Source: Natrinema sp. HArc-T2 (GTDB lineage: Archaea > Halobacteriota > Halobacteria > Halobacteriales > Natrialbaceae). Taken from it: 64,000 bases of DNA. Positions within the stretch are counted from its first letter, which is position 1, and the number at the start of each line of letters is the position of its first letter. The position numbers were made by a program, and so were the translations under genes. The DNA lies in contig NZ_JBGUAZ010000001.1 in assembly GCF_041821085.1 (NCBI RefSeq), positions 62,001 to 126,000 of the forward strand. The letters run 5' to 3'. The notes beneath the pieces were generated by a model. It was not told where the DNA came from. It did no database searches and was given only the letters and a program-made list of their open reading frames with translations. Positions 5,151 to 21,389 of the stretch are shown here, piece by piece.

Positions 5151-5993
5151 TCAGCCGTCGCCACTCGGCACGGGTTCGAGGACGACCCGGTCGCCGGGCT
5201 GGAGGCCGAAGGCCTCGTCACCACGGCCCTGATTGACGTCGAGTTCCGCGTAGCCGTGGCTGCCGACGGTCACCAGTCGCTCGCCGACGGAGACGGCGGC
5301 GAACGTCTCGCCGACCGGAACGGGCTCGCCGTTCGCTCGGACCCGCGCTCGGTCTTCGAGTGCCGATCCCGGGACGTTCGTGATGACGTTTCCGAAGCCG
5401 TCGACGGCCAGCACCTCGCCGACCGCTCGCTCGTCTTCGAGTGTTGCCGTCGGCAGCTTGAGGTCGACATCGACTGTCGTCGACTCGAGCCACTCGAGGG
5501 ACTCGAGAGTCTCGATGCCGATGTCGTGGACCGCGGCGGCAGCCGGCGCGAAGACGTCCCGTCCGTGGAACGTCTTGCTTCGGCCCTGTGGCAGGTGCTG
5601 TCCGCGGCTGTCTGGCTCGGACTGGTTGGTCGTCGGCTCGATGGGGCCGAGACCGTCCTCGTCGATGAGATAGTGCTCGAGTCGACCTGCGTCGCCCGCG
5701 AGCCGCCGCGCTGCAGGTAGCAAGACGCCGTTGTCCGGGCCGACGAGCGTATGGTCGCCGGCGCGGACGACTATCGCGTTGCGGTCGGTGCCGACGCCAG
5801 GGTCGACGACGACGAGATGCGTTGCAGGCGGAAAATAGGGGAGTACTTCACCGAGCCAGAAGGCGGTCGTCCGGACGTTCTGTCGGGGGAAGTCGTGGGC
5901 CACGTCGACCAGCCTGGCGTCCGTTCGCTGCAGTAAGACGCCTTTCATCGCTGCCGGATACGGCGTTCCGAAGTCCGAAGCGAGCGTAATCAT
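5151..5993 (-). CDS. SAM hydroxide adenosyltransferase (SAM hydrolase, DUF62)
   Basis: The 280-residue protein starts MITLASDFGTPYPAAMKG and has the family motifs VDVAHDFPRQ, HLVVVDPGVGT and LVGPDNGVL, followed by the smaller C-terminal domain with VDGFGNVITNVPG. Family members (related to fluorinase and SalL) use water to split S-adenosylmethionine into adenosine and methionine. The enzyme is cytosolic; its role in archaea is uncertain. It sits upstream of the NMN adenylyltransferase gene on the same strand, 28 nt away. Confidence 0.9.
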   Translation of the reverse strand: MITLASDFGTPYPAAMKGVLLQRTDARLVDVAHDFPRQNVRTTAFWLGEVLPYFPPATHLVVVDPGVGTDRNAIVVRAGDHTLVGPDNGVLLPAARRLAGDAGRLEHYLIDEDGLGPIEPTTNQSEPDSRGQHLPQGRSKTFHGRDVFAPAAAAVHDIGIETLESLEWLESTTVDVDLKLPTATLEDERAVGEVLAVDGFGNVITNVPGSALEDRARVRANGEPVPVGETFAAVSVGERLVTVGSHGYAELDVNQGRGDEAFGLQPGDRVVLEPVPSGDG

Positions 5994-6021
5994 AGTCGCC
6001 GCTACGGTCGCTCGGGCTAAA

Positions 6022-6834: not shown

Positions 6835-8976
6835 ATGAGTAACGATACGAACGTTGACGACCCTCCCGAAGACGCGCCGGCTGGTCCCGACCAGGACCAC
6901 CACGAGCGTCAGGGAGAACGGTCGCCGCGCGAGGGCGACGGCGATCGTCGTACCGACGTCGACGATCCAACCGACGGGTTCGAGCCGGCGTCCGACGAGG
7001 ACGACGAGATCGAGACCGTCGAAGACCTCGGCAGCACGGTCGAGGTCGATCCCGGCGTCGAGGTCGACGAGGAGATCGCCGAGGACGACCTCTTGGGCGG
7101 TCTCAAGATCGACTCGACGGAGGACATCGAAGTCCCCGATCGACTCGTCGATCAGGTCATTGGTCAGGACGAGGCACGAGACATCATCATCAAGGCGGCG
7201 AAACAGCGCCGACACGTCATGATGATCGGCTCGCCGGGGACCGGCAAGTCGATGCTGGCGAAGGCGATGAGCCAACTGCTGCCGAAAGAGGACCTCCAGG
7301 ATGTCTTAGTCTATCACAACCCCGACGACGGGAACGAGCCGAAGGTCCGGACCGTCCCCGCCGGGAAGGGCGAACAGATCATCGACGCCCACAAGGAGGA
7401 AGCCCGCAAGCGCAACCAGATGCGCTCGATCCTCATGTGGATCATCATCGCGGTGGTCATCGGGTATGCGATCCTCAGTTCGGCCAGCCCGCTGCTTGGC
7501 ATCCTCGCAGCAGGGATCATCTGGCTGATCTTCCGGTACACCTCACGGGGAACCGACGCGATGGTCCCCAACATGATCGTCAACAACGGCGATCAGCGCG
7601 TCGCTCCCTTCGAGGACGCGACCGGTGCCCACGCCGGTGCGCTGCTGGGCGACGTCCGCCACGACCCCTTCCAGTCCGGCGGCATGGAGACCCCGAGCCA
7701 CGACCGCGTCGAACCCGGCGCGATCCACAAATCGAACAAGGGCGTGCTGTTCGTCGACGAGATCAACACGCTCGACATCCGTACCCAGCAGAAGCTGATG
7801 ACGGCCATCCAGGAAGGCGAGTTCGCCATCACGGGCCAGTCCGAGCGCTCCTCGGGTGCGATGGTCCAGACCGAACCCGTCCCCTGTGACTTCATCATGG
7901 TCGCTGCAGGGAACCTCGACGCGATGGAGAACATGCACCCCGCGCTCCGCAACCGGATCAAAGGGTACGGCTACGAGGTCTACATGGACGACACCATCGA
8001 AGACACCCCCGAGATGCGGCGCAAGTACGCCCGCTTCATCGCGCAGGAGGTCGAACGCGACGGTCGTCTGCCTCACTTCACCGACGACGCCGTCGAGGAA
8101 CTCATCCTCGAGGCCAAGCGTCGCTCGGGCCGGAAGAACCACCTGACGCTACACTTCCGCAGCCTCGGTGGACTGGTCCGCGTCGCCGGCGACATCGCCC
8201 GCGCCGAGGACCGCGAGCACACGACCCGCGAGGACGTCCTGCAGGCCAAACAGCGCTCCCGGTCGATCGAGCAACAGCTCGCCGACGACTACATCGAGCG
8301 CCGCAAGGACTACGAACTGCAGGTCACCGAAGACGGCGTTGAGGGCCGCGTCAACGGGCTCGCCGTCATGGGCGAGGACTCCGGTATCATGCTCCCGGTC
8401 ATGGCCGAGATCGCCCCCGCCCAGGGTGGCGGGCAGGTGATCGCCACCGGCAAACTCCAGGAGATGGCCGAGGAGTCGGTCCAGAACGTCTCGGCGATCA
8501 TCAAGAAGTTCTCCGACGTCGACCTCTCGGAGAAGGACATCCACATCCAGTTCGTCCAGGCCGGCCAGCAGGGCGTCGACGGCGACTCCGCCTCCATCAC
8601 GGTGGCGACCGCCGTCATCAGCGCCTTGGAGAACATCCCGGTCGATCAGTCGATCGCGATGACCGGTTCGCTGTCGGTGCGCGGCGACGTGCTCCCGGTC
8701 GGTGGGGTGACCCACAAGATCGAGGCCGCCGCGAAAGCCGGCTGTGACACGGTCATCATCCCGAAGGCCAACGAGCAGGACGTGATGATCGAAGACGAAT
8801 ACGAAGAGATGGTCGACATCATCCCCTGTTCGAACATCAGCGAAGTCCTCGATGTCGCCCTGATGGGCGAACCCAAGAAGGACTCGCTGGTCGACCGCCT
8901 CAAGTCGATCACCGACGCGGCGTTCGACCAGGGTGCGGTCGGCTCCGCCAGCGGCTCGAACCCGAGTCCGCAGTAA
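6835..8976 (+). CDS. lonB: Archaeal LonB ATP-dependent membrane protease
   Basis: The 713-residue protein starts with an acidic tail (residues 1-95), then an AAA+ domain with Walker A GSPGTGKS (132-139). Two membrane segments (about 199-216 and 218-234) are inserted in the ATPase domain, as in archaeal LonB. Walker B is GVLFVDEIN (303-311). The protease domain has catalytic Ser585 in GDSASIT and Lys628 in GGVTHKIEAA; the 43-residue spacing matches the Lon dyad. LonB degrades membrane and unfolded proteins and in haloarchaea controls carotenoid synthesis. The next gene begins directly after the stop codon, so they form an operon. Confidence 0.96.
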   Translation: MSNDTNVDDPPEDAPAGPDQDHHERQGERSPREGDGDRRTDVDDPTDGFEPASDEDDEIETVEDLGSTVEVDPGVEVDEEIAEDDLLGGLKIDSTEDIEVPDRLVDQVIGQDEARDIIIKAAKQRRHVMMIGSPGTGKSMLAKAMSQLLPKEDLQDVLVYHNPDDGNEPKVRTVPAGKGEQIIDAHKEEARKRNQMRSILMWIIIAVVIGYAILSSASPLLGILAAGIIWLIFRYTSRGTDAMVPNMIVNNGDQRVAPFEDATGAHAGALLGDVRHDPFQSGGMETPSHDRVEPGAIHKSNKGVLFVDEINTLDIRTQQKLMTAIQEGEFAITGQSERSSGAMVQTEPVPCDFIMVAAGNLDAMENMHPALRNRIKGYGYEVYMDDTIEDTPEMRRKYARFIAQEVERDGRLPHFTDDAVEELILEAKRRSGRKNHLTLHFRSLGGLVRVAGDIARAEDREHTTREDVLQAKQRSRSIEQQLADDYIERRKDYELQVTEDGVEGRVNGLAVMGEDSGIMLPVMAEIAPAQGGGQVIATGKLQEMAEESVQNVSAIIKKFSDVDLSEKDIHIQFVQAGQQGVDGDSASITVATAVISALENIPVDQSIAMTGSLSVRGDVLPVGGVTHKIEAAAKAGCDTVIIPKANEQDVMIEDEYEEMVDIIPCSNISEVLDVALMGEPKKDSLVDRLKSITDAAFDQGAVGSASGSNPSPQ

Positions 8977-16231: not shown

Positions 16232-16304
16232 GGGCCGGTGGGGTAGCTTGGTATCCTTCGGCCTTCGGGTGGCCGTAACCGCAGTTCGAATCTGCGCCGG
16301 CCCA
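16232..16304 (+). tRNA. tRNA-Pro (anticodon CGG)
   Basis: The 7-bp acceptor GGGCCGG pairs with CCGGCCC. The anticodon stem is CGGCC/GGCCG around loop TTCGGGT (16264-16270), with anticodon CGG at 16266-16268. The T arm is CGCAG TTCGAAT CTGCG. The discriminator A is at 16304 and no CCA is encoded, as is common in archaea. No intron is seen. The D stem starts with a G-T pair, frequent in archaeal tRNAs. Confidence 0.93.
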
Positions 16305-16463
16305 TACTACTCCCGCACTTCAAACCGCCGAGTGGCGCGGCTGCGACGCGAGGCATCCGAAGTGCGGGAGTCGATGACGGCACGCAGATTCGAATCAGGG
16401 AGGAGCTTCGCTCCGACCGTGGTTCGACATCTGCGCCGGCCCACTTTTCCCGCATTTCACGAC
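16285..16463. repeat. Inverted and direct copies of the tRNA-Pro 3' end
   Basis: Three related segments occur. The first is the tRNA end plus trailer, TTCGAATCTGCG ... ACTCCCGCACTTC (16285-16321). The second is an inverted copy, GAAGTGCGGGAGT ... CGCAGATTCGAA (16359-16394), whose two ends match exactly while the middle differs. The third is a direct copy with ATCTGCGCCGGCCCA (16429-16443, identical to 16290-16304) followed by TCCCGCATTTCA. This looks like att-site scars left by elements inserting at the tRNA, or a small repeat grown from it. Confidence 0.65.
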
Positions 16464-16548
16464 GCGAGCAGCGCGATTTCCGTTTAAGTGAACCGAAGCG
16501 GTTCTCTATCACCGTAGGCCGTTGGCAAGAGAACCGATCGGACGGGGG

Positions 16549-17122: not shown

Positions 17123-17383
17123 ATGACTGATCAGCAGTCGTCGACCCGTCGTCGAGTACTGATGCTTACAGGTGCAGCTGCGTCGACCGCTCTCGTTGCT
17201 GGCTGTGGCGGTCCGGGTGGCAATGGCAACGGAGAAGACGGAGAAGAGACCGAAGACGGTGACGGGGCTGTCGATACTGGTGACAACGAAACCAACGAGA
17301 CCGACATGAACGACACCAACGACACCAACGACACCAACGAAACCAACGAGACCGACATGAACGACACCAACGACACGGAGTAG
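17123..17383 (+). CDS. Lipoprotein signal followed only by an Asn/Asp/Thr/Glu repeat tail
   Basis: The 86-residue protein has a Tat/lipobox signal (STRRRVLMLTGAA, then LVAGCGG) and then no folded domain: a Gly/Glu/Asp linker and repeats of NDTNDTNETNETDM. At DNA level a 38-bp unit occurs at 17288-17325 and again at 17339-17376. N-x-T sequons are dense, so it may be a heavily glycosylated surface tether, or a decayed lipoprotein that lost its domain. Confidence 0.65.
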   Translation: MTDQQSSTRRRVLMLTGAAASTALVAGCGGPGGNGNGEDGEETEDGDGAVDTGDNETNETDMNDTNDTNDTNETNETDMNDTNDTE

Positions 17384-20120: not shown

Positions 20121-21389
20121 TTACTCCGTTTCGTTTGTCGCGTTGCCAGTCCCCTCGTCGGTTTCGTTGGTCACGTTATCGGTCTCGTCGCTCGTTTCGT
20201 TGGTTGTGTCGCCGGTTTCGTTGGTTACGTTGCCAGTCTCGTTACCGGTTTCGTTCGCCCCGCCGTCGGCTGGCTGCTGCAGGGCTTCCTCGAGACCCTG
20301 TGTTTCGCCGATGGTGAGGGTGTCGACGGTGCTATTCTCGACCGTCATCGATCCGGCTGAGACGGACGAAATCGTCTCGCCCGTTGCCGTCTCGTTACCA
20401 TCCGCGGCGGTCTCGTTTTCGGTCGTCTCGGTGTCTCCCTGCTGGGTCTCGAGGGTGCCGACGGTCATCGCTTCGACTGTGATCTCGTCGACGTCAAACT
20501 GCTCGATGGTGAGCGACTCGATCTGCTGGATGCTTTCGTTGCTATCGGTTGCGGTGTCGTTTGTCTGGTTTCCGCCGTCACCGCTGCCGCCGAACAGGCC
20601 GCCGACGGTGTCGGCGATGCCGGAGAGGATACCCCCGTCGTTACCGTTACCGTCACCGTCACTGTCACCGTCTTCGACGGTCAGGTCCTCGATCGTCAGT
20701 TGGTCGACGTTCATCGACTCGATCGTCATGTCCTGTACCGCGACCGTGCTGGCGTCCTCGTCGACGACCTGCTGGAGACCCGTTTCGGACTCGCTTTCGC
20801 CGTCGGTCTCGTTAGCGTCGGTTTCGTTCCCGCTGTCGGTTTCGTTGGCGTCGGTTTCGTTCCCGCTGTCGGTTTCGTTGGCGTCGGTTTCGTTCCCGCT
20901 GTCGGTTTCGTTGGCGTCGGTTTCGTTCTCCCCGTCGGCCTCGGTGACGGCCATGCTCTCGTTAGCGCCGTCGAGTTCGTCGAGCGAGACGTTCTCGAGT
21001 ACCAGCGATTCGAAGGCGACGTTCGAAATCGTCACCTCGGAGGGCTCGTCGTCCGCGGTTTCAGTATCTGCAGTCTCGTTATCTGCGCTCTCGTTGTCTG
21101 CGGTCTGGTTCCCGTCGGTCTCGTTCAGCTGCTGTTCGAGCTGGTCGGTGTCTCCTTGGACATCGAGTTGCTCGACGGTGAGTTCCTCGATCGTCGCGTT
21201 CTCGATCGTGACGTTGTCGAGTTCCAGTGTGCCAACCTGGACGTTTTGCAGCGTCGCGCTCGTCTCGCTCATGTCTCCGGCGTCGTCGTTCGTGGCCGTG
21301 GTCGCGCCACCGACGAGGGCGGGACCCCCCGCGAGCGTGACCAGCAGCGCGACGAACACAACACCGAGTATCTGCGATCGTGAATCCAT
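20121..21389 (-). CDS. Secreted repeat protein: short beta-strand repeats with NETD linkers
   Basis: The 422-residue protein has an N-terminal signal (ILGVVFVALLVTLAGG). Five modules of short strands follow, such as VGTLELDNVTIENATIEEL, VTISNVAFESLVLENVSL, VQDMTIESMNVDQLTIEDL and IEQFDVDEITVEAMTVGTL, resembling a beta-solenoid. Between them are long Asn/Glu/Thr/Asp stretches with many N-x-T/S sequons, so heavy glycosylation is likely. The C-terminus is all NETG/NETD with no anchor seen. The DNA has a 33-bp tandem repeat at 20817-20930. Confidence 0.75.
   Translation of the reverse strand: MDSRSQILGVVFVALLVTLAGGPALVGGATTATNDDAGDMSETSATLQNVQVGTLELDNVTIENATIEELTVEQLDVQGDTDQLEQQLNETDGNQTADNESADNETADTETADDEPSEVTISNVAFESLVLENVSLDELDGANESMAVTEADGENETDANETDSGNETDANETDSGNETDANETDSGNETDANETDGESESETGLQQVVDEDASTVAVQDMTIESMNVDQLTIEDLTVEDGDSDGDGNGNDGGILSGIADTVGGLFGGSGDGGNQTNDTATDSNESIQQIESLTIEQFDVDEITVEAMTVGTLETQQGDTETTENETAADGNETATGETISSVSAGSMTVENSTVDTLTIGETQGLEEALQQPADGGANETGNETGNVTNETGDTTNETSDETDNVTNETDEGTGNATNETE
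20817..20930. repeat. 33-bp tandem repeat inside the secreted protein gene
   Basis: Three full units start at 20817, 20850 and 20883, followed by a partial unit. Each encodes eleven residues of the NETD/SG type on the minus strand. Copy number is likely variable between strains. Confidence 0.85.

Follow-up and report, generated by a model that had tools for sequence, protein, structure and literature searches.

A gene-less two-hairpin insert behind a haloarchaeal tRNA-Pro gene is one member of a family at tRNA 3' ends across the Halobacteriales

Background

The attP(+) site of CTXphi is folded from two inverted sites, and bacterial BIME/REPIN arrays consist of non-autonomous hairpins in alternating orientation. 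The units described here resemble both. With IMEX such as CTXphi they share an inverted and a direct core split by a hairpin and the lack of an integrase of their own, but they target tRNA T-arms rather than dif and are without phage genes. As in BIME/REPIN arrays, hairpins of alternating orientation are arrayed and non-autonomous; unlike those elements, the units are not scattered over extragenic sites but are linked to tRNA genes and have stems tailored to the tRNA. Integron cassettes are similar in that short units are arrayed at one entry point; attC sites are folded and asymmetric, and the hairpin sites here may be so. The present units lack open reading frames, their entry site is a tRNA gene and, by inspection, their core, GTTCRAATC, does not match the attC core box GTTRRRY. 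A paper on archaeal integrons (PMC9668308) makes no mention of Halobacteria or tRNA.

Among archaeal systems, the att sites of tyrosine integrases in tRNA genes, as presented in the available part of a review (PMC8371274), are comparable in the duplication of the tRNA 3' end. The units differ in having no linked integrase, an inverted copy and a fit to more than 25 tRNA types, and they are not described in that part of the review. The PATEs of Haloquadratum (PMC3119063) are likewise small, palindromic and haloarchaeal, and movement in trans has been proposed for them, but they have IS605-type ends and are not bound to tRNA genes. A target duplication at a tRNA end, as in casposons, is present, but Cas1 and PolB cannot fit a gene-less unit of ~125 bp. 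No published description of these units was found in the open-access literature searched or was otherwise known to us.

The window is a stretch of 64,000 nucleotides from Natrinema sp. HArc-T2, the genome of which is a draft of 3.73 Mb.

Results

Structure of the tRNA-Pro locus

The initial annotation of the window reported that the 15-bp end of tRNA-Pro(CGG), ATCTGCGCCGGCCCA (16290-16304), is repeated exactly 139 bp downstream, and the coordinates of the recurrence (16429-16443) were confirmed; the chance of a given 15-mer recurring within 250 bp is ~2e-7 (250/4^15). The inverted copies that it had placed between the direct repeats were likewise exact, ACTCCCGCACTTC (16309-16321) being inverted at 16359-16371 and TTCGAATCTGCG (16285-16296) at 16383-16394. 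The direct copy begins 6 nt before the 15-mer: 16423-16443 corresponds to tRNA nt 54-73 with one extra base, and the repeat is best described as tRNA nt 54-73, beyond the last 15 bp. The locus has the following parts:

16232-16304, + strand: tRNA-Pro(CGG) gene, the host site (ARAGORN)
16285-16304, + strand: first (functional) copy of the tRNA 3' end, nt 54-73
16305-16382, + strand: A hairpin and linker (13-bp stem 16309-16321/16359-16371, loop 16322-16358, linker 16372-16382)
16383-16394, - strand: inverted T-arm copy (CGCAGATTCGAA), the root of hairpin B, tRNA-tailored across the family
16395-16422, + strand: B module TCAGGGAGGAGCTTCGCTCCGACCGTGG, the inner hairpin
16423-16443, + strand: second copy of the tRNA 3' end, TTCGA-C-ATCTGCGCCGGCCCA, the right unit boundary
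16444-16480, + strand: possible remnant of an older unit, CTTTTCCCGCATTTCACGACG..., which on inspection resembles the A-module start of L012/L010

Folding of the 139-nt insert (16305-16443) gave a z score of -5.5 as RNA and -5.6 as DNA, and 0/200 shuffles folded as well. Two hairpins are predicted, A directly behind the tRNA and B with a root composed of the inverted T-arm and the second tail. The A module of the window was also found in L006, L007, L011, L021 and L033, and its B module at tRNA-Pro in four other genomes and at one Arg(tct) tRNA.

Empty and filled sites in relatives

The 3' side of tRNA-Pro(CGG) carries a similar insert in several Natrinema species and other genera and is empty in others. 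The empty site that the initial annotation proposed to seek in relatives is present: the filled site L012 (genome G009) differs from the empty sites L013, L017 and L024 by a clean 125 bp exactly, with both flanks homologous. When the unit was removed, the identity of L012 to the empty sites was 82-85% upstream and 73-83% downstream, versus 44-47% when it was kept. The tRNA-Pro unit was 93% identical in another genus, and the adjoining gene 71%. The inserts at this tRNA are mosaics, in which the window, L011 and L021 have A and B in common, L006 and L007 combine the window's A with a different B, and L008 has that different B with another A.

A search for an integrase-bearing element at the same tRNA had also been suggested as a check; neither a large element with the tRNA-Pro core nor a convincing far att copy was found within 18 kb of tRNA-Pro in 20 genomes. 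In several Natrinema (L013, L017, L024, L031 and L012), tRNA-Pro is followed by another stretch of DNA in which a small ORF may encode a zinc finger; this stretch is probably an integrated island.

Distribution over tRNAs and genomes

The tRNA-Pro insert is not a one-off: it belongs to a large family of units that lie behind tRNA genes throughout the order Halobacteriales. The same architecture occurs behind many tRNAs of the window genome, each unit with the tail of its own tRNA. By an unbiased count, a unit was present at 15/44 tRNAs in the window genome (decoy rate 2.0%), at 13/41 in a genome of another family (decoy rate 2.8%) and at 0/29 in a genome of another class (decoy rate 0.2%). In the haloarchaea checked, about a third of the tRNA genes carry a unit and about two thirds are without one.

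A pattern for the inverted and direct T-arm, GATTYGAA...GGTTCRAATC, was found in 55 of the 61 relatives' genomes searched, and in 50/53 Halobacteriales versus 4/242 other genomes of the phylum, with a reversed control near zero. When ~85,000 species genomes were searched with a stricter class-1 pattern, there were at least 120 matching stretches, haloarchaeal throughout among the matches listed. Again among the matches listed, a called tRNA (27 kinds) precedes 111 of 126 class-1 sites, contrary to a dif target; the other 15 were mostly at locus edges or behind tRNA ends missed by ARAGORN. The inverted copy, which the initial annotation called unusual, is actually the rule in the family at at least 25 tRNA types. 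It had also been argued that the same arrangement, fixed in distant haloarchaea without any element, would point to a conserved RNA or terminator; the arrangement is order-wide and element-free, but it is polymorphic, not fixed.

Family anatomy and module exchange

The anatomy was derived from 136 units at 25 tRNA types, partly selected by pattern, with most of the units coming from pattern-chosen loci. The order within a unit is trailer hairpin A, inverted T-arm piece, hairpin B and a copy of tRNA nt ~54-73. The median length of the 136 units is 124 nt, the 5-95% range is about 90-175 (92-175), and the units are without genes. The inverted piece fits the T-stem of its own tRNA better than those of others (2.83 vs 2.04 shuffled, sd 0.10, z about 8).

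B modules occur at different tRNAs, one of them, for example, at Arg, Ser and two Val tRNAs, and A modules are almost always confined to one tRNA type. Of the nearest neighbours of B modules among those at other tRNAs, 13% lay in the same genome vs 5% with permuted labels (permuted maximum 12.7% in 200). This co-occurrence of similar Bs at different tRNAs of one genome, above the permuted level, suggests spread within genomes, although the shuffling of B could alternatively reflect gene conversion over short homology.

Units also form tandem arrays, with hairpins in alternating orientation at L317, L303, L337 and L292; in the L317 array A is identical and B differs between units. Different units are arrayed behind one tRNA, and the second tail copies decay while the first remain intact. 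A reading of the units as tRNA introns was rejected because the first tRNA copies are whole. Counting against a mobile cassette, some units are old and were inherited at one tRNA in sister species (Arg(tct) in L035 and L328).

Folding and strand bias

The z score of folding was -4.0 for the units and -0.9 for control trailers, taken from tRNAs that lack a unit. The tRNA-sense strand folded better than the antisense strand in 97/116, and the motif bias was 110:6. Strand-biased folding does not separate single-stranded DNA from RNA. In the predicted folds of hairpin B, 46 of the first internal loops counted from the root were 3'-longer, 7 were 5'-longer and 46 were symmetric. In one class of A hairpins, the loop is GARCAANNNCGYGAG and the stem covaries (94% paired vs 77% with shuffled partners), a compensatory change that is expected from a selected RNA as much as from a DNA site. 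When the tRNA and its unit are folded together, the second tail is predicted to pair with the 5' strand of the tRNA. No Rfam family was matched, and the tRNA alone reached its threshold.

Two sense-strand motifs, GAGCGAAGCGAG and GCGAAGC, recur in the window (16395-16422) and in units in L065-L094 and L278-L337. GCGAAGC is an unusually stable DNA mini-hairpin, and its recurrence would fit a role as single-stranded DNA.

Integrases, islands and viral sequences

An integrase-like gene was present within ~8 kb at 5/120 loci among the matches listed (tblastn, 13 integrases of the window genome as queries); a PF00589 search covered the window genome. The phage and plasmid collections had no match to the whole insert, and no free circle or viral or plasmid attP was found there or in the viral contigs. 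In viral contigs, a generic pattern returned mostly tRNA-Ser/Leu look-alikes and chance matches and was discarded, class-specific patterns gave one haloarchaeal contig, with the match beside a host tRNA-Glu, and one unrelated match, and a third pattern had no matches. An archaeal XerA (PaXerA) reportedly binds stem-loops of unrelated att sites (PMC8371274).

The window genome has a true integrase island of ~4.5 kb at tRNA-Ala(cgc) (L350, G000:C4:165000-180000). Its far core is the bare CTCCCGGCGAGTCCA, without inverted copy or hairpin, and the island inserted at the genuine end of the tRNA instead of at one of the copies. A small acceptor-type unit follows this island, and in genome G024 the same unit lies directly behind the tRNA; islands and units therefore occupy this place independently of each other. 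The hairpin of the acceptor type (GCAAACGC...GCGTTTGCTCA) was considered as the attR of the island, and comparison of L347 with L350 identified it instead as an independent small unit displaced by the island.

These acceptor-type units make up a second family of small hairpins, which follow tRNA-Ala(cgc) and tRNA-Arg(cct) and have the acceptor end for a core (GGACTCGCC...GCAAACGCTTCGCGTTTGCTCA...GGCGAGTCCA):

L347, 7119-7312, - strand: acceptor-type unit
L350, ~8150-8300, - strand: acceptor-type unit
L323: acceptor-type unit
L345, ~5850-6000: acceptor-type unit
L348, ~7400-7600: acceptor-type unit

One copy in L345 lies away from a called tRNA, and its changed core is matched in the inverted copy up to a G-T pair.

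Discussion

That the family is mobile, or at least insertable, is well supported. For the insert at 16305-16443, the explanation to which we give an even chance is that it is one gene-less cassette of a Halobacteriales family that inserts at tRNA 3' ends and is moved by an enzyme acting in trans, the likeliest being a tyrosine recombinase that works on folded hairpins. A unit would enter exactly at the tRNA end and, since nt 54-73 are either carried by the unit or duplicated, would leave the tRNA intact. The newest unit would adjoin the tRNA and displace older ones outward, a process that would generate the tandem arrays (direct, inverted, direct, inverted and so on). The inverted T-arm piece and the direct copy would pair to form hairpin B, the root of which, often followed by a 3'-longer first internal loop, would rebuild the double-stranded T-arm core within a single strand. 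A recombinase provided in trans (most likely a tyrosine recombinase of the Xer/integrase type, from the host or a virus) could then join the folded strand to the tRNA gene's T-arm, much as happens at integron attC sites or the CTXphi attP(+). B hairpins, which have the near-universal GATTYGAA/TTCRAATC motif at their borders, could pass between tRNAs, and A hairpins and the outer stem would remain fitted to one. The folded-site model draws on the anatomy, the strand bias and the analogy with attC and CTXphi; the enzyme class, the single-stranded intermediate and the order of insertion are what we infer. More tentatively, and with rather less confidence than in the cassette itself, the units may be a new kind of mobile unit, with two hairpins and a tRNA tail, a core re-tailored to each tRNA entered and an exchangeable B; a recombinase acting in trans would move them in folded single-stranded form at most types of tRNA gene throughout an archaeal order.

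The main rival to the cassette, which we regard as somewhat unlikely, is that the units are structured trailers of tRNA transcripts, with A and B as RNA hairpins for 3' processing, termination or small-RNA function and the tail copy as part of the RNA. Such trailers would account for the better folding of the sense strand and the A class with conserved loop GARCAANNNCGYGAG and covarying stem, and they are favored by the restriction of A modules to their tRNA type and the predicted pairing of the second tail with the tRNA 5' strand. They do not explain why the site is polymorphic within a genus, why differing units are arrayed behind one tRNA or why B modules are swapped between unrelated tRNAs; moreover, about two thirds of the tRNAs have no unit, second copies decay while first copies are intact, and Rfam has no matching family. 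The decoy idea, by which spare tRNA tails are a host device, attB-like sites that trap viruses as they integrate behind the tRNA proper, is very improbable. In its favor, the copies are attB-like sequences displaced behind real hotspots, and the rest would have to be surmised; against it, the only island looked at had inserted at the genuine end of the tRNA.

Direct copies of a tRNA end are a classic att sign and do flank the insert, and tRNA-Pro and tRNA-Ala are seemingly also used by real islands in the genus, all of which agrees with attL-attR remnants of ordinary tyrosine-integrase elements (viruses, plasmids or islands) whose body was deleted. We nevertheless consider such scars improbable. 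Integrase-like genes were found at only 5/120 loci among the matches listed, the 20 tRNA-Pro regions had no far core copies, the phage, plasmid and viral-contig searches yielded no matching attP, the core of the tRNA-Ala(cgc) island is bare with the other small unit merely displaced (L350 vs L347), and a scar would not account for inverted copies that are tailored to the tRNA at over 25 tRNA types. Of the initial att reading, the tRNA tail bounding a tiny insert was right, and the scar of an excised full element is not supported by the island and integrase searches. A similarly low probability is assigned to REPIN/BIME-like or MITE-like elements mobilized by a transposase of the HUH (Y1) or DDE type, or by a Cas1-type integrase that duplicates 20 bp of target at the ends of tRNA genes. 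The alternating hairpins do resemble BIME arrays, small IS605-related elements, the PATEs, have been reported in Haloquadratum (PMC3119063), and new units seem to enter beside the tRNA like spacers beside a leader; but BIMEs are not bound to one class of site, whereas nearly all units follow a tRNA, and plain target duplication gives no inverted copy fitted to each tRNA.

If the cassette explanation is true, an undescribed insertion family occupies about a third of haloarchaeal tRNA genes and the tRNA ends are a record of recombination. The refitting of a site core to many tRNAs would become testable, as would archaeal recombination of folded single strands and effects on tRNA processing or virus integration. 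If the units prove to be RNA trailers, an order-wide class of structured RNA beside tRNA genes was overlooked.

Additional observations

At L046 and L057 (G000:C6:114514-114953 and C2:211623-212082), the genes for tRNA-Gly(gcc) and tRNA-Asp(gtc) are duplicated in tandem, and their trailers are nearly identical. In the window, the short ORF at 17123-17383 is lipoprotein-like (MTDQQSSTRRRVLMLTGAAASTALVAGCG...) and ends in a long tail of Asn-Glu/Asp-Thr repeats, and the ORF at 20121-21389 on the - strand has a similar style of repeat.
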